DNA of 64,000 bases from Geoalkalibacter halelectricus. Lineage in GTDB: Bacteria > Desulfobacterota > Desulfuromonadia > Desulfuromonadales > Geoalkalibacteraceae. The DNA is taken from contig NZ_CP092109.1 of assembly GCF_025263685.1 (NCBI RefSeq), positions 3,163,001 through 3,227,000 of the forward strand, written 5' to 3'. Below the pieces are notes generated by a model, which was not told the origin of the DNA, searched no databases, and was given only the letters and a program-made list of their open reading frames with translations. Positions 26,406 through 64,000 of this stretch are shown piece after piece. The stretch's first letter is position 1. Every line of letters begins with the position of its first letter. Position numbers and translations under genes: made by a program.

Positions 26406-26465
26406 TATCCCATTAACAGGTTATTGATCACCCAACTCGGGTACCCACCCCGAACAAAGGACCAT

Positions 26466-30240: not shown

Positions 30241-30350
30241 GCTAAGACGCATGGTTAGTGCGGCGTTTCTCCCCACCCCCGCCTCCTTGCGGCGTGGCGT
30301 TTCTCCCCGCTGGGGATTTTTTCCCCGGCAATAACGAGAGGGGAAGAATC

Positions 30351-31653: not shown

Positions 31654-31707
31654 ACCTGAACGGATTGCGGGCCATCGGTCACTTGCGGCGCGCAGAATCG
31701 TTCAGGT
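31654..31707 (+). other. Inverted repeat at the 5' end of the ADH2 transcript
   Basis: ACCTGAACG (31654-31662) pairs with CGTTCAGGT (31699-31707). The predicted transcript would begin almost exactly at this stem, a known way to stabilise an abundant mRNA. Confidence 0.45.
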
Positions 31708-31817
31708 CCTGGCCTTGGTTAAAACAAAGTTATGAGGAGGTGGCGGAACGTCTTGACGACCGCCGCCAAGGAAGCGGCAGCACGCCATTTTCATTACCCC
31801 AACAGGAGGAAGAAGCA

Positions 31818-48000: not shown

Positions 48001-48498
48001 CTAACCCCCCTTCCCCCGCTCGGCGAAAAATCGCGCGGCGATCTCGGTGTGCATGATAAACCCCAACTCGGTGGGTTTTTCAATGATAACAACTTCCTCG
48101 GTTTCCTCCGAGGAAAAAGGTTTGAAACAGTCGCTGGGACGCGGCGCGGCCAGGCCGAAGACCACCAGGGTGCCGTCGAGACCGTTCATCACGTCGTAGA
48201 GGCGCAGCTCTGCGCTGGAGACTTCGATGCCGGTCTCCTCGAAGGCCTCGCGGCTGGCGGCCTGCTGCCAGGTTTCGCCGTAATCGATGTAGCCCCCGGG
48301 CAGGGTGAGGGTGCCCTTGCGCGGCTCGGTGTTGCGACGGATCACCACCAGCCCGGCGCCGACAGGCAGCAGCACCACCGCCACGGGCAGGGGATTGAGA
48401 TAACTGGTGTGGCCGCAGGCGCGGCACAGGCGCGGCCAGGGCTGGTCGGGAAAAAAACGACTGCCGCACCAGGAGCAATGGGAATGAAGTTCGCTCAT
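48001..48498 (-). CDS. NUDIX hydrolase with an N-terminal zinc ribbon
   Basis: 165 residues. A zinc ribbon (CSWCG ... CRACG, residues 8-28) precedes a NUDIX domain with the full box GGYIDYGETWQQAASREAFEETG. Resembles NudC/ADP-ribose pyrophosphatase-type enzymes that cleave nucleoside diphosphate-linked compounds. Exact substrate unknown. It is divergent from the mft operon. Confidence 0.88.
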   Translation of the reverse strand: MSELHSHCSWCGSRFFPDQPWPRLCRACGHTSYLNPLPVAVVLLPVGAGLVVIRRNTEPRKGTLTLPGGYIDYGETWQQAASREAFEETGIEVSSAELRLYDVMNGLDGTLVVFGLAAPRPSDCFKPFSSEETEEVVIIEKPTELGFIMHTEIAARFFAERGKGG

Positions 48499-48722: not shown

Positions 48723-48738
48723 TGGCATCTGCGTTGCA
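48723..48738 (+). promoter_or_regulatory. Sigma-54 promoter of the mycofactocin operon
   Basis: TGGCAT, 5 nt, TTGCA: one mismatch to the consensus. Predicted start near 48750, 56 bp before mftA. Confidence 0.82.
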
Positions 48739-48805
48739 ATAACTGTGGCAACACAGACGATGCATTGCGCATTGATCCACAAACCGCAGCAAAGGAGAGA
48801 TAACA

Positions 48806-48913
48806 ATGGAAGTTGAACAGATCAATACCGAGGCATGCACGGAAGAACCGGAGATCCTTGAGGAGATCCAGGTCGAGGAACTCGCCATCGACGGCATCTG
48901 CGGAGTCTACTGA
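48806..48913 (+). CDS. mftA: Mycofactocin precursor peptide MftA
   Basis: 35-residue peptide, Glu-rich, ending IDGICGVY. The C-terminal IDGxCGVY is the signature of MftA, whose last Val-Tyr is decarboxylated and cross-linked by MftC to become the redox-active core. Start behind AAAGGAGAGATAAC. A second Cys (Cys11) is present in the leader, besides the core Cys32. The gene ends 1 bp before mftB, with MftC coming next, the standard mftABC order. The family is best known from Actinobacteria. Confidence 0.93.
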   Translation: MEVEQINTEACTEEPEILEEIQVEELAIDGICGVY

Positions 48914-48914
48914 G

Positions 48915-49172
48915 ATGGCGGCGGCAGGCATTCAGCTGCATCCCGCCTGCCGCGTGAGGCAAGAGGGGTTCGGCCTCCTGTTTTACGATTCCAGGGGGCC
49001 GCGCCTTCTCTTCGCCGCGACCGGCGGCCTGCTGCCCGCCGACTTCTTCAGCGAAGTCCGCGGGCGCGCGGAACTGCCGGCGGATCTTTCGCGCGGCCAG
49101 CACCAAGCCCTGGGCAAACTCGTCCAGCAACTTCTCGACAAAGGATTTCTGCGTGAGCAACCGATTTGTTGA
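48915..49172 (+). CDS. mftB: MftB, peptide-binding chaperone of mycofactocin synthesis
   Basis: 85 residues. Small PqqD-like (RRE) protein that binds MftA and hands it to the radical SAM enzyme. The start RVRQEGFGLLFYDSRGPRLLFA is typical of the beta-sheet part. Its position between mftA and mftC, with a 20-bp overlap into mftC, supports the call. Confidence 0.87.
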   Translation: MAAAGIQLHPACRVRQEGFGLLFYDSRGPRLLFAATGGLLPADFFSEVRGRAELPADLSRGQHQALGKLVQQLLDKGFLREQPIC

Positions 49173-50196
49173 AATGGGACTGCGCGCCCCGGTCAACCTG
49201 ACCTGGGAAGTGACCTACGCGTGCAACCTGCGCTGCACCCATTGCCTGTCCGCCTCGGGCGAACCGGCGGCGGACGAGCTGACCACCGCCGAGGCCCTCG
49301 ACCTGGTGGAGCAGATGCACCAGGCCCGCGTCTTCCAGATCAATTTCGGCGGCGGCGAGCCCTTCATGCGCCCCGATTTCGAGGAAATTCTCGATGCCTG
49401 CCACGCGCGCGGCATCATGACCTGCATTTCCACCAACGGCACCCTGCTCGACGCCGAGTTGGTGGAGCGCCTCTCGCGCACCCGGCTGGTGGCCATTCAG
49501 GTGAGCCTCGACGGAGCCGAAAAGAGCACCTGCGAGGCGATCCGTGGCACAGGCACCTACGATGATGCCCTCAAGGCTCTGCGCCTGCTGGCGAAAAGCC
49601 CCATCCCGACCAGCATCAACACGGTGCTCACCCGGCAGAATGCGCAGGAAATCCCCGCCATGTACGATCTTGCCGAGCAACTGGGCGTAACCCTGCGCGT
49701 CAGCCGCTTTCGCCCGTCGGGGCGCGGCAGCGACAACTGGGAATCCCTGCGCCCCTCGCCCCAGCAACTGATTGATTTTTCCGCCTGGCTGGAGAGCCGC
49801 GGCGACGTGCGCACCGGCGACAGTTTCTTCTCCCTGACCGCCCAGGAGCGCCAGGGACTGGGCCTCAACCTGTGCGGCGCGGCCAAGCTGACCTGCTGCG
49901 TCGGCCCCACGGGCAAGGTCTACCCCTGCGCCTTCATGCAGCTCGACGCCTTCGAGGCCGGGTCGCTGCGCAGCGAGAGGTTCCAGTACATCTGGGAGAG
50001 CGCGGAGATTTTCGCCTCCCTGCGCGGCCTGCGCATCCATTCCTGCGAGGACTGCAAGCGCTTCGACCAGTGCCACGGCGGCTGCCCGGCGGTGGCCTAT
50101 CACCTCAAGAACGACATCGAGGGCGGCGACCCCGAATGTCTGGAGCGCTGCGTGACCTCGATTGCCGAGGAAAACCAGAAGGCGTCGGCGGCTTAA
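49153..50196 (+). CDS. mftC: MftC, radical SAM/SPASM maturase of mycofactocin
   Basis: 347 residues from a GTG start overlapping mftB. SAM cluster CNLRCTHC, then NFGGGEPF. C-terminal SPASM Cys: CCVGPTGKVYPC, CEDCKRFDQCHGGC and a final ECLERC, enough for two auxiliary clusters. MftC decarboxylates the C-terminal Tyr of MftA and forms the Val-Tyr carbon-carbon link. The direct context of MftA and MftB makes this assignment strong. Confidence 0.93.
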   Translation: MSNRFVEMGLRAPVNLTWEVTYACNLRCTHCLSASGEPAADELTTAEALDLVEQMHQARVFQINFGGGEPFMRPDFEEILDACHARGIMTCISTNGTLLDAELVERLSRTRLVAIQVSLDGAEKSTCEAIRGTGTYDDALKALRLLAKSPIPTSINTVLTRQNAQEIPAMYDLAEQLGVTLRVSRFRPSGRGSDNWESLRPSPQQLIDFSAWLESRGDVRTGDSFFSLTAQERQGLGLNLCGAAKLTCCVGPTGKVYPCAFMQLDAFEAGSLRSERFQYIWESAEIFASLRGLRIHSCEDCKRFDQCHGGCPAVAYHLKNDIEGGDPECLERCVTSIAEENQKASAA

Positions 50197-50210
50197 AAAA
50201 TCTTTTTTAC

Positions 50211-50324
50211 CGCCCGTTCGCCTCGCTCACTGGAGATCGCGAAGAACACTGAGAAATTCAGAGAAAAAATTCTATTTGTTTTCTCAGCGAACTCAGCGCC
50301 CTCTGCGGTGAAACGAATTTAAAA
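50211..50324. repeat. Dispersed palindromic repeat between mftC and the OYE gene
   Basis: The type with CTGCGGTGAAACG at one end and CTGAGAAA/TTTCTCAG in the centre. A related copy is at 60325-60437. Such elements are common between genes in many genomes. Confidence 0.55.
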
Positions 50325-50340
50325 GCCAGGAGCCTAAACC

Positions 50341-52302
50341 ATGATGTTCGAATACCTGTTCTCGCCCATCAAACTCGGCCAGGTGGAGCTGAAAAACCGC
50401 ATCTCCTTTCAGCCGCATCTGACCAATTTCGCCGAGCACTGCATGCCCAGCGAGCGTCACATGTATTACTGGGGCGAGCGGGCCAAGGGCGGCGCGGGCC
50501 TGATCATCACCGAAGAGATGAGCGTGCACCCCACGGACACCGCCTACGAAAAGCTGGTGGAGGCCTTCCATCCCGAGGTCATTCCCGGCTTCCGCAAGAT
50601 CACCGACTACGTGCACCAGTACGACGCCAAGATCTTCTGCCAGCTCAACCACAACGGCCAGCAGTGCGACGGCAGCATCTCGCGCCTGCCGGTGTGGGCT
50701 CCGAGCCCCATGCCCGACGTCCTGTTCCGCGAGACGCCCAAGGAGATGGAACCCGAGGACATCGAGGAGGTCTGCCGCTACTTCGCCAAGAGCGCGGTGC
50801 ATGTGCGCGAGGGCGGCTTCGACGGCGTGGAGCTGCAGTTCGGCCATTCGAGCCTGGCGCGCCAGTTCCTCTCGCCTCTGACCAACTTCCGCTCCGATGA
50901 ATTCGGCGGCAGCCTGGAAAACCGCATGCGCGCGCCCCTCATGTTCATCGAGGCGGTGCGCAAGGCGGTGGGCAAGGATTTCACCCTCGGCATCCGCCTG
51001 TGCGCCGACGAGATGATCCCCGGCGGCCTCGATCTCGGTCAGATTCAGGAAATCGGCGCCAAATTCGAGGCCTCGGGCCTCATCGACTTCATGGACCTCT
51101 CCATCGCCACTTTCTACAACCTCTATCTGGTGGAAGGTTCCATGCATACGCCCCTAGGCTACACCATACCCCTGGCGGCGGGGATGCGCGAAAAGCTCAA
51201 GCTGCCGGTGTTCTGCACCGGACGCATCAACGATCCGGTCATGGCCGAAAAGGTGCTGGCCAACGGCCAATCCGACATGATCGGCATGTGCCGCGCCCTG
51301 ATCTGCGATCCTTTTTTACCGAAAAAGGCCTTCGAAGGCCGCCTCGAGGACATCCGCTACTGCGTCGGCGACAATCAGGGCTGCATCGGCCGCATGGGCA
51401 TCAACCGCACCCTGGGCTGCATCCAGAACCCCGCCGTGGGCCTGGAGAAGGAATGGGGCGAAGGCACCCTCAAGCCCGCGCCGGTGAAGAAAAAGGTGAT
51501 GGTGGTGGGCGGCGGTCCCGCCGGCCTGTGGGCGGCGAAGATGGCCGGGCGACGCGGCCATCAGGTCGATCTCCATGATCGCAATGAAAACCTCGGCGGC
51601 CAGGTGCTCACCGCCATGAAGGGCGCCGGCCGCGACGAGTTCGGCGTCATCATTCGCAATGAAAAGGACCAGGTCGACAAAGCCGGAGTCAAAGTCCACC
51701 TACAAAGCCAATTGACCCCCGAGGAGATTCTCAAGGCCAACCCCGACGTGGTGGTGGTGGCCACCGGCAGCCAGCCCAAGAGCCATCCGGTGGGCGGCGC
51801 CGACGGTCCGGCGGTGTTCAACGTCTGGCAGGTCCTCGACGGCAAGCCGGAGTTGGGCGACAAGGTGTGCCTCATCGACTACGATGGCCACCACCGTGCC
51901 TCCGCCACCGCCGAGCGCCTCGCCGACCTGGGCAAGACGGTGCACATCATCACCTCAAGCCTGTTCGTCGGCGCCGAACTCGGTCCCACCCAGGATCTCT
52001 ACCTGACCCGCCAGCGCCTGCTGCAAAAGGGCGTGACCTTCACCCCCGACATCGCCGTGATGGAAGTCGGCGGGGAAGCGGGGCAAAAGGAAATCAAGGG
52101 TTTCAACGTCTATTCCAATCAATGGCAGACCTGGGGGCCCTTCGATTCCATCGTCCTGGCCATGGGCCAGCAGGTGGACGCCGACCTGTATTTCGCCCTC
52201 AAGGGCAAGGTCAAGGAGCTCTACCGCATCGGCGACTGCGTGGCGCCGCGCAAGGTCGACATGGCCATCTGGGAAGGCCACAAGACCGGGAGGTCAATCT
52301 GA
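50341..52302 (+). CDS. Mycofactocin-system OYE/FadH-type flavoprotein oxidoreductase
   Basis: 653 residues. An N-terminal FMN-binding TIM barrel of the old yellow enzyme type (about 1-370), an iron-sulfur site, and C-terminal FAD and NAD(P) Rossmann domains (VMVVGGGPAGLWAAK at about 385). This is the FadH/2,4-dienoyl-CoA reductase layout, and a subfamily is known to go with mycofactocin genes. The Fe-S motif keeps FadH spacing (C341-x2-D344-x3-C348-x11-C360), but the second ligand is Asp. It starts after a repeat and overlaps the ETF gene (TGATG). Possibly it exchanges electrons between mycofactocin, or a substrate, and the ETF. Confidence 0.88.
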   Translation: MMFEYLFSPIKLGQVELKNRISFQPHLTNFAEHCMPSERHMYYWGERAKGGAGLIITEEMSVHPTDTAYEKLVEAFHPEVIPGFRKITDYVHQYDAKIFCQLNHNGQQCDGSISRLPVWAPSPMPDVLFRETPKEMEPEDIEEVCRYFAKSAVHVREGGFDGVELQFGHSSLARQFLSPLTNFRSDEFGGSLENRMRAPLMFIEAVRKAVGKDFTLGIRLCADEMIPGGLDLGQIQEIGAKFEASGLIDFMDLSIATFYNLYLVEGSMHTPLGYTIPLAAGMREKLKLPVFCTGRINDPVMAEKVLANGQSDMIGMCRALICDPFLPKKAFEGRLEDIRYCVGDNQGCIGRMGINRTLGCIQNPAVGLEKEWGEGTLKPAPVKKKVMVVGGGPAGLWAAKMAGRRGHQVDLHDRNENLGGQVLTAMKGAGRDEFGVIIRNEKDQVDKAGVKVHLQSQLTPEEILKANPDVVVVATGSQPKSHPVGGADGPAVFNVWQVLDGKPELGDKVCLIDYDGHHRASATAERLADLGKTVHIITSSLFVGAELGPTQDLYLTRQRLLQKGVTFTPDIAVMEVGGEAGQKEIKGFNVYSNQWQTWGPFDSIVLAMGQQVDADLYFALKGKVKELYRIGDCVAPRKVDMAIWEGHKTGRSI

Positions 52303-53330
52303 TGGCGGTGGGCAAATCTCCCCAACCCTTCGCGCCGGGGCCGGTGCTGGCGGTGCTGGACCTGCCCGGCGGCGAACTGGAGGAAATCGGCAAGGGCCTG
52401 CTCAGCGAGGCCTCGCGCCTGGCGAAAAAACTCGACGTGCCCTGGGCGGCCCTGTGCCTGGCCGGCTTCGCCCCCCAGGTTCCCGAGCAGTGCGGCGCCT
52501 ACGGCACCCCCCGCCTGCTGATTCTGCCCGCCGCCGCGGCGGTGGTCGACTCTCCGGATCTTCTGGCGGCGCACATCGCCGAGGCGGCACGCGCCCAGGG
52601 CGCGGGGGTGGTGCTGCTGCCCCACAACGACCTGGGACACAGCCTGGCACCGCTGCTCGCCGCCGCCCTGGCCGGTCCCCTGTTCACCGAGGCCCTGGCC
52701 TGCACCCGTGAAGCCCAGGGCCTGAAACTCACGCGCCACGCCCTGGGCCGCCGGGTACAGGAAGCCTGGTTCTGGGACGGCCAAGGCACCCTGGTACTCA
52801 CCGCGCATCCACGCATTCTGAGCGCGGCGGTGCTGCCCTCCATGCCCCGCACCACGCCCGAGCAGGTGGAATTGAGCGCCCCGCCGAGCACCGCGCCGGG
52901 CAAAACCCGCATCCTCGAGCGCATTCCGCCCGATCCGCAGACCGTCGACGTCTCCGAGGCCGAGGTGATCTTCAGCGCCGGACTCGGCTGCGACCAGGCC
53001 TGCTTCGAGCAGTTGCTCGAACTGTGCAAGCTGCTCAACGTCTCCCTCGGCGTCACCCGCCCGGTCTACGACCTGGGCTGGACGGGTTTCGAGCGCATGG
53101 TCGGGCAGACCGGCAAAACCGTGGCACCGCGCTTCTACCTGGCCCTAGGCATCTCGGGCTCCATGCACCACTTCGGCGGCATCAAGGATTCGCGCCGCAT
53201 CATCAGCCTCAACATCGATCCCAAAGTGCCCATGTTTCCCAATTCGGACGAGGGCTTCGTCGCCGACCTCAATGCGGTCATGCCACTGCTGCTGGAACGG
53301 GTTCGGTCCGCCACCGGAGGTACCGCATGA
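52302..53330 (+). CDS. etfA: Electron transfer flavoprotein alpha-type subunit
   Basis: 342 residues. The C-terminal third has the FAD-binding signature of EtfA/FixB (ALGISGSMHHFGGIKDSRRIISLNIDPKVP ... FPNSDEGFVADL, here cited in parts). The N-terminal half is more divergent. Starts in the stop of the OYE gene and overlaps fixC by ATGA. It pairs with the beta subunit at 54918 and would pass electrons to FixC/FixX. Confidence 0.9.
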   Translation: MAVGKSPQPFAPGPVLAVLDLPGGELEEIGKGLLSEASRLAKKLDVPWAALCLAGFAPQVPEQCGAYGTPRLLILPAAAAVVDSPDLLAAHIAEAARAQGAGVVLLPHNDLGHSLAPLLAAALAGPLFTEALACTREAQGLKLTRHALGRRVQEAWFWDGQGTLVLTAHPRILSAAVLPSMPRTTPEQVELSAPPSTAPGKTRILERIPPDPQTVDVSEAEVIFSAGLGCDQACFEQLLELCKLLNVSLGVTRPVYDLGWTGFERMVGQTGKTVAPRFYLALGISGSMHHFGGIKDSRRIISLNIDPKVPMFPNSDEGFVADLNAVMPLLLERVRSATGGTA

Positions 53331-54625
53331 AACGCTCTTTCGATGCCATCGTCATCGGCGCCGGGCCGGCCGGCTCCTCGGCGGCCCTCACCCTGGCCAA
53401 GGCCGGCCTGGATGTGGCGCTGCTCGAACGCGGCAGCTATCCCGGCGAGAAGAACATGTTCGGCGGCGTGCTCCATCGCCTCACCGCCCTGGAGGAGCAT
53501 TTTCCCGAGTTCTGGAACCAGGCGCCGCTGGAGCGTCACATCGTCAAGAAATCCCTGACCTTCCTGACCGAGGAATCCTCCTTCAACGTCAACTTCGACA
53601 CCCAGGCCTCGGACCGCACCCCCTACAACGGCTACACCGTGTACCGGCCGCGCTTTGACCGCTGGCTGGCCGATGAAGCGGTCAAGGCCGGCGCCAAGCT
53701 CTACTGCGGTTGCACGGTGGAGGATCTGCTGCGCGAGGACGGGCGGATTACCGGCGTCAAGGTGATGCGCGACGGCGGCGAGATCAAGGCGCCGGTGGTG
53801 ATCGCCGCCGACGGCGTGCTTTCCTTCGCCGCCAAGAAGGCCGGCCTGCGCCGCCCGGCCTTCGATCCGGCGCAGATGGCGGTTGGCGTCAAGGCCCTCA
53901 TCGACCTGCCCAAGGAGGTCATCGACGACCGCTTCGGCCTGGTGCGCGACCAGGGCGCCTCCAATGAGTTGGTCGGCTGCACCCAGGGCGTGCGCGGCGG
54001 CGGATTTCTCTACACCAACTACGATTCTCTCTCCATCGGCCTGGTCATGCACCTGGGCAGCCTGAGCGAGAGCGGCAAGACGCCCTACGACCTGCTCAAC
54101 AGCTTCATGGAACAGCCGCAGATGGCCAAGCTGCTCAAGGGCGGGCGGCTGCTGGAATACTCGGCGCACCTGGTGCCCGAGGGCGGCTACGACATGGTGC
54201 CGGAAACCTACGGCGACGGCATCCTGGTGGCGGGCGACGCGGCGGCGCTGTGCATCGTCACCGGCCTCAACCTCGAAGGCATCAACCTGGCCACGCACTC
54301 GGGCACCCTCGCCGGCCAGGCCGCCATCGAGGCGCACGGGCGCAAGGATTTCTCCAAGCGCAGCCTCTCCTGCTACCAGCGCATGCTGGAGAACAGCTAC
54401 GTCATGCAGGATCTCAAGCTCTACCGCCGCACCCCCCACATGCTGCACAACGACCGCATCTACACCCAGTATCCGGAGCTGCTGTGCGGCATCATGGATG
54501 AAATCTACCGCATCGACGGCACGCCCAAGGACACCATGACCAAGCTGCTGATGCGCACCGTCAAGGACAAAATCGGCCTCAAGAACCTGCTTGCCGATGT
54601 CTATTCAGGATGGAGAGCCCTATGA
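53327..54625 (+). CDS. fixC: FixC-like ETF:quinone oxidoreductase flavoprotein
   Basis: 432 residues from ATG 53327. FAD-binding GAGPAGSSAA near the N-terminus and the GDAAAL motif near residue 305, matching the FixC/ETF-QO family. It accepts electrons from the ETF and, with FixX, delivers them to quinone at the membrane. Overlapping starts and stops with its neighbours show a tight operon. Confidence 0.92.
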   Translation: MKRSFDAIVIGAGPAGSSAALTLAKAGLDVALLERGSYPGEKNMFGGVLHRLTALEEHFPEFWNQAPLERHIVKKSLTFLTEESSFNVNFDTQASDRTPYNGYTVYRPRFDRWLADEAVKAGAKLYCGCTVEDLLREDGRITGVKVMRDGGEIKAPVVIAADGVLSFAAKKAGLRRPAFDPAQMAVGVKALIDLPKEVIDDRFGLVRDQGASNELVGCTQGVRGGGFLYTNYDSLSIGLVMHLGSLSESGKTPYDLLNSFMEQPQMAKLLKGGRLLEYSAHLVPEGGYDMVPETYGDGILVAGDAAALCIVTGLNLEGINLATHSGTLAGQAAIEAHGRKDFSKRSLSCYQRMLENSYVMQDLKLYRRTPHMLHNDRIYTQYPELLCGIMDEIYRIDGTPKDTMTKLLMRTVKDKIGLKNLLADVYSGWRAL

Positions 54626-54906
54626 AAATCAACGTCGACGAAATCTTCGACGTCACCAGCTTCAACATCGACCGCGAGCCGCACATCGTGCTCGATCCCC
54701 AGGTGTGCGTCGGCTGCGACCAGCGCGGCTGCACCAACTCCTGCCCGGCGCGCTGCTACACCTGGTCGGAAGAGGATCAGAAGATGACCTTCGTCCATGA
54801 CGGCTGCCTGGAGTGCGGCACCTGCTACGTGGTCTGCCACCGCAACGCCTTCACCCGCTGGACCTATCCCCGGGGCGGCTTCGGGGTGTCCTTTCGCATG
54901 ACCTGA
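54622..54906 (+). CDS. fixX: FixX-like ferredoxin
   Basis: 94 residues from ATG 54622, overlapping fixC. Cys residues in CVGCDQRGCTNSC and CLECGTCYVVC match the FixX ferredoxin family. It partners FixC, replacing the C-terminal ferredoxin domain of eukaryotic ETF-QO. Confidence 0.92.
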   Translation: MKINVDEIFDVTSFNIDREPHIVLDPQVCVGCDQRGCTNSCPARCYTWSEEDQKMTFVHDGCLECGTCYVVCHRNAFTRWTYPRGGFGVSFRMT

Positions 54907-54917
54907 GGAGACGCGCC

Positions 54918-55814
54918 ATGTCTGAAAATAAGCTCGAAATTCTGGTGGTGCTGCGGGAATGCAGCGACCCCCGCCCCCCCGTGGGGCTCATGACCCGCGG
55001 TGCCGGCCTGCGCGAGCGGGGCCTGCGGCGCCTGACCAACCTCGCCGACCTCGAGGCCCTGGAGCACGCCCTGGCTCTTCAGGACGCGGGCGTGGCCCAG
55101 GTGAGCGTCGTCGCGGCCGGGCCCGCGCGGATCGAGGACAGCCTGCGCCTGGCTTTGGCCCTGGGCGCCCGGCGGGCCATTCGCGTCTGGGATGCCGGCT
55201 TCGAAGGCGGCGATGCCCTGGCCGACGCGCATCTCTGGCAACGGGTCTATACCGTGTTACGCCCCAAACTGATCCTGACCGGCAACCGCCTGCTGGATGC
55301 CGGTTGCGACCCCGCGCCGGGTCTTGCGGCCGCGCGCATGGGCATGGGCTGCGTCAGCGCCGCTCTGTCGCTGGTGCTCAACGACAATCAAGCGACGGTG
55401 CTGCGCAAGGGCGATTGCGGCGCGCGGCAGAAAATTCAGGTTCAACTTCCCTGTGCCATCCTCTGTGAGGCGGGCGCCAGGCAGGTCCGCTACCCTGGTC
55501 TTGAGGCCGTCGTCAATGCCACGACCCAACCGGTGGAGTTCTGGAGTCTGGCGGACCTGGGCCTGCCGGTGTGGGAGGTCGGTGCCCTGGGCGCAACCCT
55601 TGAACAGGGCGAAGTCAGCTTTCCCCGCCCCGATCCCCTGCGCGCGACCACGCCCGATCCCAGCCTGCCGGCCTTCGAGCGCATTCTTGCCCTACTCTCC
55701 GGCGGCATTCAGCCGCGCGAAGGCAAGATGCACTTTCTGCCCCCCGATCAGGTGGTGGAAAGCCTGATGGAGATTTTCCAAAGCGAAGGGCTGCTGCCCG
55801 AGGCCGAAGCATGA
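54918..55814 (+). CDS. etfB: Electron transfer flavoprotein beta-type subunit
   Basis: 298 residues from ATG 54918 behind GAGGAG. The EtfB/FixA signature regions NLADLEALEHAL and GCDPAPGLAAARMGM are visible. It completes the ETF with the alpha gene at 52302; the two are separated by fixC and fixX, an unusual order. The stop overlaps the mftF start by ATGA, tying the electron-transfer genes to the mycofactocin genes in one operon. Confidence 0.88.
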   Translation: MSENKLEILVVLRECSDPRPPVGLMTRGAGLRERGLRRLTNLADLEALEHALALQDAGVAQVSVVAAGPARIEDSLRLALALGARRAIRVWDAGFEGGDALADAHLWQRVYTVLRPKLILTGNRLLDAGCDPAPGLAAARMGMGCVSAALSLVLNDNQATVLRKGDCGARQKIQVQLPCAILCEAGARQVRYPGLEAVVNATTQPVEFWSLADLGLPVWEVGALGATLEQGEVSFPRPDPLRATTPDPSLPAFERILALLSGGIQPREGKMHFLPPDQVVESLMEIFQSEGLLPEAEA

Positions 55815-57223
55815 CTTACCGACTGCTTTCATCGGTTCGCATCGAGGAATCACCCGCGGGCATTTTCCTGGTGGCCGAGCGACCCTACCGGGTGCTGCGC
55901 ATCAACCAGAAGCTCGCGGATCTGGCCCGCCGGGGCCGCGAGGCGGGCGTCGCCGCGACCACGCCCGGCGAACACAAAATCTGGGAAACCCTCGTCACCC
56001 AGGGGCTGGCCCTGCGCGAGGAGCCGGCCGAGGCTCCCGACTTCCAGCCCCGGGTCAGCGTCGTCATCCCGGTACTCGACCGCGCCGAGGATCTGCGCAA
56101 GTGTCTCGAATCCCTGCGCCGCCTCGATTATCCCCAACAACTCCTGGAGATCATCGTGGTCGATGACGGCAGCCGCGACGCCTCGCCCCAGGTGGCCGAG
56201 GAATTCGGCGCGCGCCTGCTGGCCAGCGGCGGGCGCGGCACGGGACCGGCGGCGGCGCGCAATCGTGGCGCGGCGGCCGCCGGCGGCGACATCCTCGCTT
56301 TTATCGATTCCGACTGCACCGCCTCGCCCCAATGGCTCGGCGAACTGCTGCCGAGCTTCGCCGATGGCGAGGTCGCCGCGGTGGGCGGCTGGGTCGACGG
56401 CATGAACAGCCGCCGCGGCCTGGATCGCTACGAAACGGTCATGTCGAGTCTCAACCTGGGCGGGCGCGAACGCAACGGCAAGGAAGGCAACGACACCTTC
56501 TACCTGCCGAGCTGCAACCTGCTGGTGCGGCGCACCGCCTTCGCCATCGTCGGCGGGTTTCGCGAGGATCTCCACGTCGGCGAGGACGTGGACCTCACCT
56601 GGCGCCTGCGCGACTGCGCCTACCGCATCGTCTACCTGCCCAAGGGCAAGGTGTGCCACAACCACCGCAGCAGCCTGATGCCCTTCATGCGGCGGCGCTT
56701 CGACTACGGAACCTCCGAGGGCATGTTGCAGACCCTGCATCCCCAGCGGCGCAAGAAACTGCTCCTGCCGCCCGGCTTGTGCGTGGCCTTGCTGTTGCTC
56801 ATGCTCGGCCTGACCACCCTGCAGGCCGCGGTGTTCGGCACCTGCGCCGCCGTGCTGCTCATCGATGCCGGCGTCACCCACGCCAAGCTCAACCGGCGCG
56901 GGTTGCGTCAGGGATTCCTCGCGGTTTTTCAGGCGCGCCTGCGCGCCTTGGCGAGCCTGGCCTATTATCTGGGCTATCATCTGCTACGCTATTACCTGTT
57001 GCCGATCATCCTGCTCGGGATTGTCCTGCCGCAGGCGGGGTTGGTGCTTGCCTTGCTTGGACTCTGGGTGGTGGGGGTCGATTACCGGCTGCGCCGCCCC
57101 GAGCTCTCGCTCCCGGCCTTCGCCCTGTTCTACCTGCTGGAACAGATCTCCTACGGCCTGGGTGTGTTCGTCGGCTGCTGGCGACAAAGAAATTTCTCCA
57201 GTTACGTATTTGAATTTTCGTAG
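55811..57223 (+). CDS. mftF: MftF, membrane glycosyltransferase of mycofactocin
   Basis: 470 residues. An N-terminal segment of about 75 residues, then a family 2 glycosyltransferase domain (VSVVIPVLDRAEDLRKCL; VVDDGS; FIDSDC with the metal-binding DxD) and C-terminal membrane helices (about 320-450). MftF adds glucose units to the mycofactocin core. It ends the operon, and its stop codon lies inside a palindromic repeat. Confidence 0.9.
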   Translation: MTYRLLSSVRIEESPAGIFLVAERPYRVLRINQKLADLARRGREAGVAATTPGEHKIWETLVTQGLALREEPAEAPDFQPRVSVVIPVLDRAEDLRKCLESLRRLDYPQQLLEIIVVDDGSRDASPQVAEEFGARLLASGGRGTGPAAARNRGAAAAGGDILAFIDSDCTASPQWLGELLPSFADGEVAAVGGWVDGMNSRRGLDRYETVMSSLNLGGRERNGKEGNDTFYLPSCNLLVRRTAFAIVGGFREDLHVGEDVDLTWRLRDCAYRIVYLPKGKVCHNHRSSLMPFMRRRFDYGTSEGMLQTLHPQRRKKLLLPPGLCVALLLLMLGLTTLQAAVFGTCAAVLLIDAGVTHAKLNRRGLRQGFLAVFQARLRALASLAYYLGYHLLRYYLLPIILLGIVLPQAGLVLALLGLWVVGVDYRLRRPELSLPAFALFYLLEQISYGLGVFVGCWRQRNFSSYVFEFS

Positions 57224-57421: not shown

Positions 57422-59152
57422 ATGAACAAGATCTACCGCGTCAACATGACCGACCTGACCACCTCCGTGGAAGACTGCCCGGCCGAATGGGCGGGTCTGG
57501 GCGGCCGCGGCCTGACCTCGGCCATCGTCGCCGCCGAAGTGCCCCCCGCCTGTCATCCCCTGGGGCCCAACAACAAGCTGGTGTTCGCTCCGGGCCTTCT
57601 GACCGGCACCCCGGCGGCCAACTCGGGACGGCTCTCGGCGGGCGCCAAAAGCCCCCTGACCGGCACCATCAAGGAGAGTAATGCCGGCGGCAGCGCGGCG
57701 CAGCTCTTCGCGCGCCTCGACATCAAGGCGCTCATCATCGAGGGCCAGCCCAAGGAGGATGCCTGGTACAAGCTGGCGCTCTCCAAGGACGGCGTGAAGA
57801 TCGAGAAGGAAACCGCGCTGGTCGGCAAGGGCAATTTCGCCGTGGTCGAGGCGGTGCAGGCGCAAAAGGGCAAGAAGACCGGCGTGATCAGCATCGGCCC
57901 GGCGGGCGAGTGGCGCATGAAGGCGGCCAACATCTCGGTGATGGATCCCGACGGCAAGCTGCGCAGCCACGGCCGCGGCGGCCTGGGCGCGGTGATGGGC
58001 GCGAAGAAGATCAAGTACATCACCGTCGACGGCGAGGGCGCACCGGCGGTCAAGATCGCCGATCCGGAGAAGTTCAAGACCGCGGCGCGCACCTTCGCCA
58101 AGGCGCTGCTCGATCATCCGGTCTCGGGCGAGGGTCTGCCCACCTACGGCACCAACATCCTGATCAACGTGCTCAACGAGGCGGGCGGCTTGCCGACCAA
58201 GAACTTTCGCTACGGCCAGTTCGAGGGCCATGACAAGATCTCGGGCGAAACCATGCACGACATCATCACCGCGCGCGGCGGCAAGACCAAGCACGGCTGC
58301 CATGCCGGCTGCATCATCCAGTGCTCCCAGGAGTACGTGGATACCTCGGGCGTCTATGTGACCTCGGGCTTTGAGTACGAGACCATCTGGGGCTTTGGCG
58401 CCAACTGCTGCATCGACAACCTCGACCACATCGCCGAGGCCGATCATCTCATGGACGATATCGGCATCGACTCCATCGAGTCGGCGGTGATCATGGGTGT
58501 GGCCATGGAGGCGGGCATCCTGCCCTGGGGCGATGGGCCCGGCGTCAATCGCCTGCTGCGCGAGGAGATCGGCAAGGGCACGCCGCTGGGACGTATTCTC
58601 GGCAACGGCGCGGCGGAGGTGGGTGTGGCCTATGGGCTCACGCGCGTGCCGGTGGTCAAGGGCCAGGGCATTCCGGCCTACGATCCGCGCTCGGTCAAGG
58701 GCATCGGCATCACCTACGCCACAAGCACCATGGGGGCGGATCACACCGCGGGCTATTCGGTGGCGACCAACATCCTCAAAGTCGGCGGCGATGTGGATCC
58801 GCTCAAGAAAGAGGGGCAGGTGGAGCTCTCGCGCAACCTGCAGATCGCCACCGCGGCGGTTGATTCCACCGGCCTGTGCCTGTTCGTCGCCTTCCCGGTG
58901 CTCGACATCCCCGAGGCGCTCACCGCCATCGTCGAGATGCTCAACGCGCGCTTCGGCCTGAGCCTCACCGGCGATGACGTCACGGCCCTGGGCACCTCGA
59001 TCCTCAAGACCGAGCATGCCTTCAACCAGGCCGCGGGCTTCACCAACGCCCACGACCGGCTGCCCGAGTTCTTCGCCACCGAGCCGGTGCCGCCGCACAA
59101 CGTGGTGTGGGATTTCACCGACGCCGAAATTGACGAATTCTGGAATTTCTAG
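57422..59152 (+). CDS. aor: Tungsten-containing aldehyde:ferredoxin oxidoreductase
   Basis: 576 residues from ATG 57422 behind AAAGGGAG. AOR family: N-terminal NMTDLTT and WAGLGGRGLTSAI, the cofactor-binding region NSGRLSAGAKSPLTG, and [4Fe-4S] ligands in CHAGCIIQC plus the late Cys of STGLCLF. Oxidises aldehydes to carboxylic acids (or the reverse) with ferredoxin-like acceptors and a W-bis-pterin cofactor. MoaD- and MoeB-like cofactor genes follow, and a Moco/Tuco-type leader precedes it. No AorA-type ferredoxin subunit is adjacent. A role in aromatic metabolism (BamB-like) is less likely, as no bam genes are near. Confidence 0.93.
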   Translation: MNKIYRVNMTDLTTSVEDCPAEWAGLGGRGLTSAIVAAEVPPACHPLGPNNKLVFAPGLLTGTPAANSGRLSAGAKSPLTGTIKESNAGGSAAQLFARLDIKALIIEGQPKEDAWYKLALSKDGVKIEKETALVGKGNFAVVEAVQAQKGKKTGVISIGPAGEWRMKAANISVMDPDGKLRSHGRGGLGAVMGAKKIKYITVDGEGAPAVKIADPEKFKTAARTFAKALLDHPVSGEGLPTYGTNILINVLNEAGGLPTKNFRYGQFEGHDKISGETMHDIITARGGKTKHGCHAGCIIQCSQEYVDTSGVYVTSGFEYETIWGFGANCCIDNLDHIAEADHLMDDIGIDSIESAVIMGVAMEAGILPWGDGPGVNRLLREEIGKGTPLGRILGNGAAEVGVAYGLTRVPVVKGQGIPAYDPRSVKGIGITYATSTMGADHTAGYSVATNILKVGGDVDPLKKEGQVELSRNLQIATAAVDSTGLCLFVAFPVLDIPEALTAIVEMLNARFGLSLTGDDVTALGTSILKTEHAFNQAAGFTNAHDRLPEFFATEPVPPHNVVWDFTDAEIDEFWNF

Positions 59153-59277: not shown

Positions 59278-59502
59278 ATGAAGGTTCTGATCAAACTCTT
59301 CGCCACCTTCCGCAACGAGCGCTTCAAGCAGGAGGAAAAGGATCTGCCGCCCGGCACGACCATCCGCCAGGTCGTGGCACAACTGGAAATCGCCGAGGAA
59401 GCCCTGGGCATGGTCATGCTCAACGGCCGCCACACGCCTCTGGATCAGGAGTTGAGCGAGGGAGACACCCTCTCGCTGTTCCCCCTCGTGGGAGGCGGCT
59501 GA
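59278..59502 (+). CDS. moaD: MoaD/ThiS-family sulfur carrier for the pterin cofactor
   Basis: 74 residues, beta-grasp ubiquitin-like pattern, ending LFPLVGGG with the C-terminal Gly-Gly needed for adenylation and thiocarboxylate formation. It would supply sulfur to molybdopterin synthase. Placed after the tungsten enzyme and 1 bp before the MoeB-like gene, it is probably the copy used for the tungsten cofactor. Confidence 0.9.
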   Translation: MKVLIKLFATFRNERFKQEEKDLPPGTTIRQVVAQLEIAEEALGMVMLNGRHTPLDQELSEGDTLSLFPLVGGG

Positions 59503-59503
59503 G

Positions 59504-60322
59504 ATGAGCGATCTGCACGAATATATTCGCGCCCACATCACGGGCGATCTGGTGCCCTGGGATATCCAGCAGGAGGCGGCCGCCCGCTTCGGCCTCTCCC
59601 TGGCCGAGGTGGAGGGCCAGCTGCTGGAGGCGCAACTGCTGCCCGCCCGCTACCAGCGCAATCGCAAGGGCATCAGCACCGCCCAACAGCTTAAGCTGCA
59701 CCGGGCACGCGTCGCGGTCATCGGCTGCGGCGGTCTGGGCGGCTACATTCTTGAGGAACTGGCGCGCCTGGGGGTGGGCACCATTGTCGCCATCGACCCC
59801 GACGTTTTCGAGGAACACAACCTCAACCGCCAATTGCTCAGCGCCCCCGAGCGACTCGGGCAGGACAAAACGCAAGCGGCCCAGGCACGCATCGCCGAAA
59901 TCAACCCGGCGGTGACCCTGGTGGCGATCAAGCAGGCCCTGGGCCGCGACAATGGCGCCGAACTGCTGCAAAACTGCGACCTGGCGGTGGATGCCCTGGA
60001 CAGCATCCGCGTGCGCCTGGAGCTGGCCGAGGTGTGCGACCAGCTCGGCATCCCCATGGTGCATGGCGCCATCGCCGGCTGGTACGGTCAGGTCTTCACC
60101 CAGTTCCCCGGCGAGGATCACCTGCAGCGCATCTACGCCCATGGCGTCGACGGCAAGGGCGCGGAAAAGGCCCTCGGCAATCCCTCCTTCACCCCAGCCC
60201 TGGTGGCCAGCCTTGAAGTCGCCGAGGCCTGCAAGCTGCTCATCGGCGTCGGCGAACCCCTGCGCGGCCGCAAGCTGATTATCGACCTGCTCGACATGGA
60301 TTTGCACGTCGTGCCGTTGTAA
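59504..60322 (+). CDS. moeB: MoeB/ThiF-family adenylyltransferase
   Basis: 272 residues. An N-terminal extension of about 60 residues, then the ThiF/E1-like nucleotide-binding domain (VAVIGCGGLGGYILEELARLGVG) and the DPDVFEEHNLNRQ motif. It activates the C-terminal Gly of the MoaD-like partner just upstream. The typical zinc Cys pairs of E. coli MoeB are not evident. Closest to the HesA/ThiF subgroup that goes with AOR genes. Confidence 0.88.
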   Translation: MSDLHEYIRAHITGDLVPWDIQQEAAARFGLSLAEVEGQLLEAQLLPARYQRNRKGISTAQQLKLHRARVAVIGCGGLGGYILEELARLGVGTIVAIDPDVFEEHNLNRQLLSAPERLGQDKTQAAQARIAEINPAVTLVAIKQALGRDNGAELLQNCDLAVDALDSIRVRLELAEVCDQLGIPMVHGAIAGWYGQVFTQFPGEDHLQRIYAHGVDGKGAEKALGNPSFTPALVASLEVAEACKLLIGVGEPLRGRKLIIDLLDMDLHVVPL

Positions 60323-60451: not shown

Positions 60452-61957
60452 TCAGCGCAGACCGTACTTGTTGATTTTGCGGTGCAGGGTGTTGCGGCCG
60501 ATGCCGAGCTGGCGGGCCGCGGCGGAGATGTTCCAGTGGTTGCGTTCCAGGGCGGCGCGCACGGCCTCCCTTTCGTTGGCGTGCAAATCAAGCGGAGCGT
60601 TCGGCGACGCCGAAGAGCGGCCGGTGAGTTGGTACAGAATTCCGGCCAGATCCTCCACCTGCCCCAGCAACTGCTCCAGATCCTGTCGCGAGCGGCGGCC
60701 GAGTCCTTCCGCGCCGCCGAGCCACGCGAGGATATTCGCTCCCGATGTCGGAAGCGGGTCGGGGTGCGCGGCGCCCTCGCCAGGGTCGGCCGCGGCCAGG
60801 AAGTGTCCAAGGTGCTTGGGCAGAATGGTTGGGCCGCTGCACAGCGCGGCCGCGCGGCGCAGCACATTGACCAGTTCGCGGATATTGCCGGGCCAGGAAT
60901 GTTCCTGCAACAGACTCACAACCGCCGGGGCCAGGGTCAGATCGGGATTGTTCTGGCGAACGAAATACTCGGCCAGGGCGGGAATGTCCTCGCGCCGCTC
61001 GGCCAGGCTGGGCAGTTCCAGGCGCACCACGTTGAGCCGGTAGTAAAGATCCTCGCGGAAGGTTTTCTTGCCCACCGCTTCCCACAAATCGACATTGCTC
61101 GCCGAAATCAGCCGCACGTTGCCGCGGATCGGCTTCTCGCCGCCCACCCGCATGAATTCGCCCGTTTCCAGCACCCGCAGCAGCTTGACCTGAATGGCCG
61201 GACCGGCATCGCCGATTTCATCGAGAAACAGGGTGCCGCGATGGGCCAGTTCGAAGATGCCCCGGCGCAGACTGCCGGCGCCGGTAAACGAGCCGCGTTC
61301 GTGGCCGAACAGCTCGCTCTCGAGCATGTTCTCGGGCAGCGCCGCGCAGTTGATGGGAAAAAAGGCCTGGTCGGCGCGGCTCGAGGCGGCGTGAATGAAG
61401 CGGGCCAATACTTCCTTGCCGCTGCCGGTCTTGCCCTGGATCAGCACATTGATGTTCTTGTTGGCGATTTTGTAGGCCAGGGACACCAGGCGCCGCATGG
61501 CTTGCGAACGCCCCACCTGCAGACCGACGGCCCGGGCCACACCCGCCCACTCCTCATCGCCGCCCGCGCCCGCCCCCAGGCTGCCGTGCCGGGCGGCCTT
61601 GTGAATCAGAACCTCGATCTCGGCGATGTCGTCAAAGGGTTTTTCCACATACTCATAGGCGCCCATCTGCATGGCGCTCACCGCCGTCTTGATAGTGCTG
61701 AAGCCGGTCATGATGATGACTTCGCAGGCCGGGTGGTGGGCCTTGATCTGACGCAGCAGGGTCAGCCCGTCCGTATCGGGCAGCTTGAGATCGACCATCG
61801 CCACCTGGTAGGCGGCGCCGTGCAGGGCCGCCAGGGTTTCCGCCTCATTGGTGGCGGTGGTCACCGCATAGCCCTTGCGACTGAGCAGGCGCCGCAGAAA
61901 ATTGCAGACATCCGCCTCATCGTCGACGATCAGCACCCGTGTTACTTCCGTCACCAC
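60452..61957 (-). CDS. NtrC-family sigma-54-dependent response regulator 3
   Basis: 501 residues from a GTG start behind GGGGGAGAT. Receiver domain with Asp56 (VAMVDLKLPDTDG). AAA+ domain with Walker A QGKTGSGKEV; the sigma-54 loop reads GSFTGA rather than GAFTGA. A C-terminal Fis-type HTH ends LGIGRNTLHRKINKYGLR. A poorly conserved linker (about 385-450) lies before the HTH. It follows its kinase by 23 bp and lies in one direction with the iron alcohol dehydrogenase at the right edge, a plan much like that of the ADH1 operon. Confidence 0.92.
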   Translation of the reverse strand: MVTEVTRVLIVDDEADVCNFLRRLLSRKGYAVTTATNEAETLAALHGAAYQVAMVDLKLPDTDGLTLLRQIKAHHPACEVIIMTGFSTIKTAVSAMQMGAYEYVEKPFDDIAEIEVLIHKAARHGSLGAGAGGDEEWAGVARAVGLQVGRSQAMRRLVSLAYKIANKNINVLIQGKTGSGKEVLARFIHAASSRADQAFFPINCAALPENMLESELFGHERGSFTGAGSLRRGIFELAHRGTLFLDEIGDAGPAIQVKLLRVLETGEFMRVGGEKPIRGNVRLISASNVDLWEAVGKKTFREDLYYRLNVVRLELPSLAERREDIPALAEYFVRQNNPDLTLAPAVVSLLQEHSWPGNIRELVNVLRRAAALCSGPTILPKHLGHFLAAADPGEGAAHPDPLPTSGANILAWLGGAEGLGRRSRQDLEQLLGQVEDLAGILYQLTGRSSASPNAPLDLHANEREAVRAALERNHWNISAAARQLGIGRNTLHRKINKYGLR

Positions 61958-61980
61958 CAGATCTCCCCCGAAACGCCCGG

Positions 61981-63627: not shown

Positions 63628-63665
63628 GCCCTCCTGCCCCCTCCCGGTCGTCATCAGGGTCCGTC

Positions 63666-64000
63666 TCACAGCGCCCGGCGGAAAAGGTCTTCGAGGTCCG
63701 TGCGCGACGCTTCGCGGGGATTGGTCACCAGGCAGGCATCGCGCAAGGCGTTGCGGCTCAATTCGGGGATTACCGCCTCGTTCAGGCCCAGGGCAGCGAG
63801 CCCTTGATCGAGTCCGACATCGGCCAGCAGTTCGCGCACCGCCGTAATGGCGAGGACGGCGGCCCGCTCGGGCGCCAGACCGCGCACGTCCTTGCCGAAG
63901 GCGGAGGCTATCTTCTGGAAGCGCTCGGGGCAGGCCGGCAGGTTGAACTCCATGACATGGGGCAGCAGGGCGGCATTGCTCTCGCCATGGTGCTGGTCGA
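63666..64000 (-). CDS. Iron-containing alcohol dehydrogenase 3, N-terminal part beyond the window
   Basis: About 111 C-terminal residues are in view. The frame is open to the right edge (reading DQHHGESNAALLPHVMEFN), which contains the last metal-binding His of Fe-ADH enzymes, so an internal Met at 63953 is not the start. The end, ELSRNALRDACLVTNPREAS, is the typical C-terminus of the family. First known gene of an operon with the kinase at 61981 and the regulator at 60452, as for ADH1. Confidence 0.9.
   Translation of the reverse strand, partial: DQHHGESNAALLPHVMEFNLPACPERFQKIASAFGKDVRGLAPERAAVLAITAVRELLADVGLDQGLAALGLNEAVIPELSRNALRDACLVTNPREASRTDLEDLFRRAL

Follow-up and report, generated by a model that had tools for sequence, protein, structure and literature searches.

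In mycobacteria the peptide-derived redox cofactor mycofactocin is encoded by the cluster mftABCDEF(G), of which the maturase MftC is known to decarboxylate and cyclise the Val-Tyr end of the precursor peptide MftA. Deletion of mftD in Mycobacterium smegmatis abolishes mycofactocins and deletion of mftE merely lowers them (PMC7491314). Loss of mftE may thus be tolerable to a lineage, whereas loss of mftD should call for a substitute; the MftD step has been termed aerobic (PMC8406134). Related clusters are described for Geobacter uraniireducens and Geobacter sp. M18, with 6 and 5 iron-dependent dehydrogenases, respectively (PMC3023750, 2011), and for G. pickeringii, where the cluster adjoins methanol-oxidation genes (PMC4358379, 2015). 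In the portion of the BGCFlow report drawn on here, mycofactocin-like clusters of Saccharopolyspora miss mftD and hold an oxidoreductase of family TIGR03997, and S. erythraea is said to produce methylated mycofactocin (PMC11162802). Here we describe the mycofactocin operon of Geoalkalibacter halelectricus, which lies in a stretch of 64,000 nucleotides (positions 3,163,001–3,227,000 of NZ_CP092109.1; hereafter the window, in whose coordinates positions are given) forming part of a complete chromosome of 4.13 Mb. Between its mftC and mftF are five genes, encoding an old yellow enzyme-type flavoenzyme (OYE_2), both subunits of an electron transfer flavoprotein (ETF) and FixCX; this set, OYE_2-EtfAB-FixCX, is termed the module below, and it occupies the place of mftD-mftE in the mycobacterial order.

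On balance, we favour the reading that the module replaces MftD, oxidising 3-amino-5-((4-hydroxyphenyl)methyl)-4,4-dimethyl-2-pyrrolidinone (AHDP) to pre-mycofactocin and delivering the electrons to quinone, and that the operon makes mycofactocin without MftD. The grounds for this are the mutual exclusion of module and MftD, their shared position, the likeness of OYE_2 to amine dehydrogenases and the need for MftD in M. smegmatis. Its observed part comprises the gene content, the conservation of the locus, the failure to find MftD, the exclusion, and the residues and predicted fold of OYE_2.

The operon and its conservation

The operon is read from the + strand (48806–57223) in the order mftA-mftB-mftC-OYE_2-etfA-fixC-fixX-etfB-mftF, with spacings of −20 to +11 bases except for 144 bases between mftC and OYE_2. 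Family calls follow the curated NCBIfam cut-offs for the window's proteins, with Pfam used for domains. The precursor gene mftA (48806–48913) encodes 35 amino acids ending in IDGICGVY, which fits the (I)DGxCGVY pattern of such precursors, and scores above cut-off against both NF040489 (44.5 bits) and TIGR03969 (43.9 bits, cut-off 25). It is followed by mftB (48915–49172), encoding the peptide chaperone (TIGR03967, 62.8 bits, cut-off 33), and by mftC (49153–50196), which starts with GTG, overlaps mftB by 20 bases and encodes the radical SAM/SPASM maturase (TIGR03962, 359.1 bits, cut-off 265). At the far end is mftF (55811–57223), for the mycofactocin glycosyltransferase (TIGR03965, 371.4 bits, cut-off 280).

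Enclosed by these genes, and also on the + strand, is the module. OYE_2 (50341–52302), a flavoenzyme of the flavin mononucleotide (FMN)/4Fe-4S/flavin adenine dinucleotide (FAD) type that we propose as an O2-independent AHDP dehydrogenase, matches mycofact_OYE_2 (TIGR03997) with 952.7 bits (cut-off 793). The ETF alpha subunit, etfA (52302–53330), has PF00766 and PF01012 domains and matches mft_etfA (NF038209) best, at 147.6 bits and under the cut-off of 240. The ETF-quinone oxidoreductase-like fixC (53327–54625) falls under the cut-offs of FixC-type models and carries the quinone-binding domain PF21162 (E 1.9e-6); its 4Fe-4S ferredoxin-like partner fixX (54622–54906) scores 64.7 bits with NF011993, under the cut-off of 166. 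The ETF beta subunit, etfB (54918–55814), matches mft_etfB (TIGR04503) best, at 69 bits and under the cut-off of 200, and its nearest solved chain is 1o94_C.

An initial annotation, made from the letters alone, had named these nine genes with their order and strand and had read the IDGICGVY end of MftA; the translated frame and the searches against the mycofactocin families bear this out, with MftA, MftB, MftC, OYE_2 and MftF above cut-off and the two ETF subunits closest to the mycofactocin-associated models. It had placed the start at 48723, upstream of the first gene, and its extent was too short, since the cluster continues past mftF with genes for an aldehyde:ferredoxin oxidoreductase (AOR), a MoaD-like and a ThiF-like protein, up to 60322. 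It had also presented mycofactocin as known mainly from Actinobacteria, although Geobacter mycofactocin was published in 2011 (PMC3023750), and it noted neither the lack of MftD nor the position of the module between mftC and mftF.

Throughout the complete genome there is no match to the MftD family (TIGR03966) at E 1e-20 or better, nor to MftG (GMC family, TIGR03970) at E 1e-60. The only match to MftE (TIGR03964, cut-off 172) is a paralogue of 117.6 bits, and none of the 277 genomes sampled from the class has an MftE above cut-off. A hidden MftE elsewhere in the genome was considered and rejected: creatininase-family matches of up to 130.7 bits occur in 161 of the 277 genomes, including some without MftC (for example G044), and were treated as unspecific. 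The family descriptions call MftD common, not universal, and MftE likewise not universal.

The window thus holds a true mycofactocin locus that brings ETF/FixCX genes of its own and is conserved in relatives. A profile search finds MftC above cut-off in 57 of the 277 class genomes, so its occurrence is not a matter of chance. The run mftC-OYE_2-etfA-fixC-fixX-etfB-mftF is complete in 41 of the 56 mft loci fetched besides the window, and mftA, sought by similarity to the window peptide, is present in 52; the initial annotation had named a search for the operon in related genomes as a check and absence of the peptide from orthologous loci as a refutation. Differences of order in two loci (L042, L073) are ascribed to the sorting of stop-to-stop frames by start and are not treated as rearrangements. 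OYE_2 is present within an incomplete set in a further 12 loci and missing from three (L039, L063 and L075), the genome of L063 (G200) having it on another contig. Across the class OYE_2 is above cut-off in 58 genomes; the six of these with no MftC call each have an MftC fragment at a contig edge directly upstream of OYE_2.

The module and MftD across genomes

Within the class, MftD is above cut-off in only three of the 277 genomes (G083, G087 and G124). The mft loci of G083 and G087 lack the module, and neither genome has an OYE_2 above cut-off elsewhere; G086, of the same genus as G087, carries the module. Of the 57 class genomes with MftC, 55 are counted as module genomes, and FixC is seen in 48 of them, the window's included. 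The others are counted on OYE_2 and EtfA (L054, L055), on OYE_2 alone on a cut contig (L047, L068, L070, L093) or on OYE_2 on another contig (L063). In G150, G207 and G211, OYE_2 is under cut-off, broken by runs of N or cut by a contig end.

Outside the class, a scan with an MftC alignment yielded at least 80 loci from several phyla, and the genomes of 50 of these were searched genome-wide. MftD is found in 27 of the 50 genomes, above cut-off in 25, truncated in one and split in one (G307 and G316, counted on partial or split matches of 463 bits and of 350 + 320 bits). A module FixC is whole in 20 genomes and divided between two contigs in a further one (G290). The last two MftD-less genomes (G281 and G298), which initially showed neither MftD nor FixC, have OYE_2 and EtfA on cut contigs and are counted as module genomes, G281 on an OYE_2 and EtfA contig that ends there and G298 on OYE_2 and an mft_etfA match above cut-off. 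None of the 50 counts as having both. The line dividing module FixC (at least 580 bits) from paralogues (at most 486 bits) was set at the gap after the scores had been seen; one MftD genome (G286) has a FixC paralogue of 472 bits with an EtfA match alongside. Across the 52 genomes searched for mft_etfA, the family is above cut-off in seven, all without MftD above cut-off.

In the merged set of 105 MftC genomes, 75 have only the module, 29 only MftD, one both (G124) and none neither. Restricting the set to genomes in which FixC was actually seen leaves 96, split 66, 29 and 1. Two loci that duplicate class genomes (L135, L139) were dropped from the merged set, as were four plasmid records, for which the plasmids alone were seen. 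An MftC tree built by a quick method implies at least 7 changes of the module. Of 200 random pairings, 188 have all 7 independent contrasts in agreement; the remaining 12 have six in agreement and one without a difference (median p 0.016, range 0.016–0.031); the plain Fisher value, which ignores kinship, is 5e-25.

Position adds to this pattern. The order mftC-mftD-mftE-mftF is found in L133, L190 and L212, and in many other MftD loci mftD is elsewhere or divergent. In the window, as in L149, L152, L156, L162, L163 and L165, the module is flanked by mftC on one side and by mftF or mftE on the other, whereas in L151 it is upstream of mftC. A metagenome-assembled genome (JACRMM01; L145 in G279, and L146) has two mftA-B-C copies on separate contigs, with the module after one only.

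In Pseudonocardiaceae, MftC is present in 139 of 297 genomes searched, and 60 loci, read at the level of the locus, comprise 21 with the module, 19 with OYE_1-OYE_2 and no ETF/FixC, one with OYE_1 only, 12 with MftD and seven with neither; no locus combines MftD with OYE or FixC, and one MftD locus (L285) has an EtfB match. Plasmids of the haloarchaea Haloterrigena turkmenica and Halolamina carry mftA-B2-C-F together with an OYE_2-like protein (~620 bits, under cut-off), EtfA, FixC, FixX and EtfB in the internal order of the window. There the module is on the opposite strand; in Halolamina a short-chain dehydrogenase/reductase (SDR) gene is inserted and mftF is annotated merely as a glycosyltransferase. 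On these two plasmid stretches no mftD is annotated, and tblastn with two MftD queries finds none. Records of Thermomicrobium and Tsukamurella have mftD and lack the module. A VWA-domain gene adjoins the haloarchaeal module (L130:19305–20918, L132:16895–16939). Haloarchaea and Pseudonocardiaceae are largely aerobic groups, and the view of the system as an anaerobic counterpart of the actinobacterial route, as the initial annotation had it, is too narrow.

Exclusion in 104 of 105 genomes suggests that the module acts in biosynthesis. An alternative, which we consider unlikely, is that the module re-oxidises reduced mycofactocin and hands its electrons to quinone in the manner of mycobacterial MftG, the MftD step being left to some enzyme not yet recognised, for example a transaminase or a paralogue of the lactate-dehydrogenase type. 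Consistent with it, MftG is above the TIGR03970 cut-off in none of the 23 MftD-less genomes outside the class and in 9 of the 27 with MftD, a catabolic flux would justify a dedicated ETF/FixCX, and a reported midpoint potential of −255 mV (PMC7491314) permits downhill transfer to quinone. An eLife paper of 2025 gives MftG in ~75% of its MftC genomes, a higher share than here, and in the part drawn on leaves open what serves the remaining ~25% (PMC11778925). The MftG counts come from TIGR03970 only, the models TIGR04542 and NF038210 being left out, and some genomes hold GMC proteins just or far under the cut-off (381 bits against 387 in G315). Re-oxidation, however, leaves unexplained the loss of MftD in all module genomes but one. 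A simple replacement of MftG should moreover make module and MftG complementary, yet both the module and an MftG above this cut-off are missing from 18 of 27 genomes with MftD, and the module-less G083 and G087 carry MftD and no MftG. On the count of 18 in 27, replacement of MftG as the main role is judged less likely. Electron flow to quinone, one half of what the initial annotation had proposed when it let reduced mycofactocin feed OYE or ETF and then menaquinone, is a fair inference; the re-oxidation half is possible and explains the missing MftD less well.

Fold, residues and proposed role of OYE_2

The predicted structure of OYE_2 (mean predicted local distance difference test score of 92.2) matches over its full length, from the FMN barrel through the 4Fe-4S region to the FAD/ADP domain, those of trimethylamine dehydrogenase (Z-score of 51.9; root mean square deviation of 1.9 over 641 residues), 2-naphthoyl-CoA reductase (51.2), the amine oxidase HisD (50.1), histamine dehydrogenase (50.0) and dienoyl-CoA reductase (49.8). 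Identity to trimethylamine and histamine dehydrogenase is 27–29%. H169 aligns with the active-site histidine of trimethylamine dehydrogenase, His172. This histidine is kept in all 64 module copies examined (50 from the class and 14 others, best copy per locus) against 3 of 9 OYE_2 copies at loci of MftD-type genera, where the other six have Gln. Five of these nine are from MftD-tested genomes (four Gln, one His) and four from congeners not tested for MftD (two Gln, two His). Left out of the count were the cut copies of L149 and L157, both of which show His, and of L154, as well as seven module loci whose best copy is OYE_1-like with Gln or Pro (L155, L157, L160, L166, L180, L197 and L213), their OYE_2 being elsewhere or cut.

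The NADPH-site motif of dienoyl-CoA reductase (IIGCGG; GCGG) is replaced by an Asp-containing sequence in OYE_2 and in both amine dehydrogenases. Among solved structures, EtfB is closest to the ETF beta chain of 1o94, an entry that contains trimethylamine dehydrogenase as well, and the FixC family profile is nearest to the solved FixC 7koe_C, an ETF-quinone oxidoreductase. Trimethylamine dehydrogenase passes electrons to ETF, and histamine dehydrogenase deaminates a primary amine. H169, the loss of the NADPH motif and the kinship of EtfB fit an amine dehydrogenase feeding an ETF.

Some loci carry a second OYE gene. The OYE_1-like copies in L156, L157, L165, L168 and L170 often have a broken 4Fe-4S motif, and the active-site histidine is present in one of 16 second copies (L199, not clearly OYE_1); OYE_1 may be a non-catalytic partner of OYE_2. 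The class loci read have a single OYE gene each.

In the proposed route, MftB would bind MftA, MftC would decarboxylate and cyclise its Val-Tyr end, and a general peptidase, as yet putative, would release AHDP. OYE_2 would oxidise the amine carbon of AHDP, its presumed substrate, either free or previously glycosylated by MftF, and hydrolysis would then yield pre-mycofactocin, probably with release of ammonia. EtfAB and FixCX would carry the electrons from OYE_2 to the quinone pool, which would take the place of O2 as acceptor. Once made, the cofactor would serve iron-type alcohol dehydrogenases, with AOR then oxidising the aldehyde.

Several observations weigh against this reading, the chief of them being that some Actinomycetota have OYE_2 without ETF/FixCX together with an unlinked MftD. 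G124 holds the module together with two MftD genes, in an assembly with 7% contamination. Six of the 23 MftD-less genomes (G294, G295, G296, G298, G301 and G313) hold MftD-family homologues of 246–306 bits (cut-off 471), which we took as putative paralogues of the lactate-dehydrogenase type because MftD genomes have them too. OYE_2 is above cut-off in 4 of the 27 MftD genomes with no module FixC (G299, G300, G306 and G317), which rules out OYE_2 alone as the complement of MftD, and 19 of the 60 Pseudonocardiaceae loci have OYE_1-OYE_2 without ETF/FixCX; the strict complement is thus the ETF/FixCX part, and OYE_2 may have another role. In G299, G300, G302, G315 and G317, OYE-type genes lie at the mft locus with no ETF/FixC match beside them and MftD is above cut-off elsewhere in the genome, and in G306 OYE_2 is outside the fetched locus. 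Where OYE_2 accompanies an unlinked MftD it may have lost its original role, as the change of the histidine suggests, or it may have a different function. The fold does not discriminate, trimethylamine dehydrogenase and 2-naphthoyl-CoA reductase being tied and histamine dehydrogenase, HisD and dienoyl-CoA reductase lying within ~3 Z units. By sequence score against solved structures, 2-naphthoyl-CoA reductase (317 bits) is ahead of trimethylamine dehydrogenase (242 bits). Cys30 of the latter, the covalent FMN-binding residue (entry 1djq is the C30A mutant), aligns with Leu27 of the window OYE_2; owing to this missing cysteine, OYE_2 is likened to the trimethylamine and histamine dehydrogenases in its working and is not assigned to their family. 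In the 4Fe-4S motif (residues 341–360) the second ligand is Asp in the window protein, as in 16 of 50 class copies, the other 34 having Cys. Finally, a dedicated chain of five genes seems a large outlay for a biosynthetic step of low flux.

Part of this evidence bears on a further alternative, in which OYE_2 works in catabolism, as a reductase or dehydrogenase of some other substrate, like its relatives acting on acyl-CoA or bile acids, and ETF/FixCX serves that pathway. The rank of 2-naphthoyl-CoA reductase among solved structures and the co-occurrence of OYE_1/OYE_2 with MftD in some Actinomycetota speak for it. In the class, however, OYE_2 is tied to MftC, the six apparent exceptions having the MftC fragments noted above, the glycine motif of the NADPH site is lost and the module lies within a biosynthetic operon; we regard this alternative as highly improbable.

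The size of the chain would cease to be an objection if the module shared in the re-oxidation of mycofactocinol. OYE_2 could be bifunctional, making pre-mycofactocin from AHDP and re-oxidising pre-mycofactocinol, so that biosynthesis and turnover use one quinone-linked chain. This would cover the absence of MftD, the absence of MftG above cut-off in module genomes and the size of the chain, and both substrates have the same ring; it requires one active site to accept an amine and an alcohol, and we think it quite unlikely. Returning to the replacement of MftD, a wider form is conceivable and is put forward only tentatively: the module may be a second, non-homologous pre-mycofactocin synthase of Bacteria and Archaea, O2-independent and wired to quinone, mycofactocin may have been an anaerobic cofactor at its origin, the aerobic MftD having replaced the module later, and turnover of the mature cofactor may run over the same chain.

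Probable alcohol-oxidation setting and comparison with described systems

Downstream of mftF on the + strand are the AOR-like gene (57422–59152; NF007354, 116.7 bits, under cut-off), likely to act after alcohol oxidation, a MoaD/ThiS-like gene (59278–59502; PF02597, E 3.2e-13), perhaps for the AOR cofactor, and a ThiF/MoeB-like adenylyltransferase gene (59504–60322; PF00899, E 2.1e-51). AOR is present in 33 of the 41 complete class loci, and two of the other eight have fewer than 300 bases past mftF. Upstream and divergent is a gene (48001–48498, −) that is NUDIX-like by eye; the same family lies upstream in 28 of 57 loci.

The genome has five iron-type alcohol dehydrogenases (PF00465, E 1e-30 or better), all within ~57 kb around the operon, and this clustering suggests that the cofactor probably serves alcohol oxidation, with AOR taking the aldehyde. 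Two are in the window on the + strand. One (26424–27665) is ErcA-like (NF041833, 431.8 bits, under the cut-off of 550) and is followed by a histidine kinase and a sigma-54 regulator; the other (31665–33023), a candidate client of mycofactocin, is nearest to models of the N,N-dimethyl-4-nitrosoaniline-dependent methanol dehydrogenase (TIGR04266, 305.2 bits, under the cut-off of 625) and of ErcA (NF041833, 304.1 bits). Convergent to the operon are, by eye, a sigma-54-type regulator and a histidine kinase, which an iron-type alcohol dehydrogenase precedes just beyond the window edge (window 60452–63669, −, and L222:1667–2884, −). The trio of dehydrogenase, kinase and regulator also occurs at 26424–30240 and, by eye, near mftD in G087 (L221); these trios resemble an ErcA/ErcS-like system for sensing alcohol. 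In 14–18 Desulfuromonadales loci, 6–7 kb upstream of mftC, there recur genes that by eye encode an ATPase of the MoxR type, a VWA protein and an iron-type alcohol dehydrogenase. Between the two alcohol dehydrogenases of the window is a radical SAM/SPASM protein (30258–31472) that may belong to another modification system, and a second radical SAM/SPASM gene (G000:C1:2831528–2832514) scores 186 bits with the MftC model, under cut-off, with one stop codon within the match.

Mycofactocin in Geobacter, the OYE_2 family and the mycofactocin-associated ETF families are already known; the literature searched, which did not extend to subscription papers, contains no account of the swap of module and MftD, no link of ETF/FixCX to the MftD step and no proposal of the module as an MftD substitute. 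Although the MftD step is termed aerobic, the remainder of the pathway is found in members of anaerobic groups, and the swap makes this puzzle directly testable. It also gives the OYE_2, mft_etfA and mft_etfB families a candidate function, and suggests the module as a candidate for what serves MftC genomes without MftG. Cluster finders that require mftD are predicted to miss MftD-less clusters, a misclassification that the BGCFlow paper reports (PMC11162802).

The published Geobacter clusters are among the closest systems described, and ETF/FixCX and the loss of MftD are not mentioned in the portions of those reports drawn on here (PMC3023750, PMC4358379). The same holds for ETF/FixCX in the corresponding portion of the report on Saccharopolyspora clusters, where the absence of mftD is given at the level of the cluster (PMC11162802). 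The window OYE_2 is a member of TIGR03997; its ETF subunits match mft_etfA and mft_etfB best, under cut-off, and the names of these two models state an association and no function. With trimethylamine dehydrogenase:ETF and histamine dehydrogenase, OYE_2 shares the full-length fold, the histidine, the lost NADPH-site motif and an ETF partner, and it differs from them in lacking the flavin-binding cysteine, in having Asp as 4Fe-4S ligand 2 and in its coupling to FixCX. EtfA, EtfB, FixC and FixX are encoded together, as in the quinone-linked EtfABCX chain.

The gene order of the module is also that of "Fix complex II" of Pelotomaculum thermopropionicum (PTH_0597–0600; fixB, fixC, fixX, fixA), which is treated as bifurcating and whose expression rises by 2.3–3.0 log2 in coculture (PMC6046458). 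A relative of Pelotomaculum (L151) has the module just upstream of mftC, and we infer a link of Fix complex II to mycofactocin from the nearby mycofactocin-type SDR PTH_0592. Set against mycobacterial mftABCDEF(G), the window likewise has MftA, MftB, MftC and MftF above their cut-offs; it differs in that no MftD, no MftE above cut-off and no MftG were found, and in that the module fills the place of mftD and mftE.

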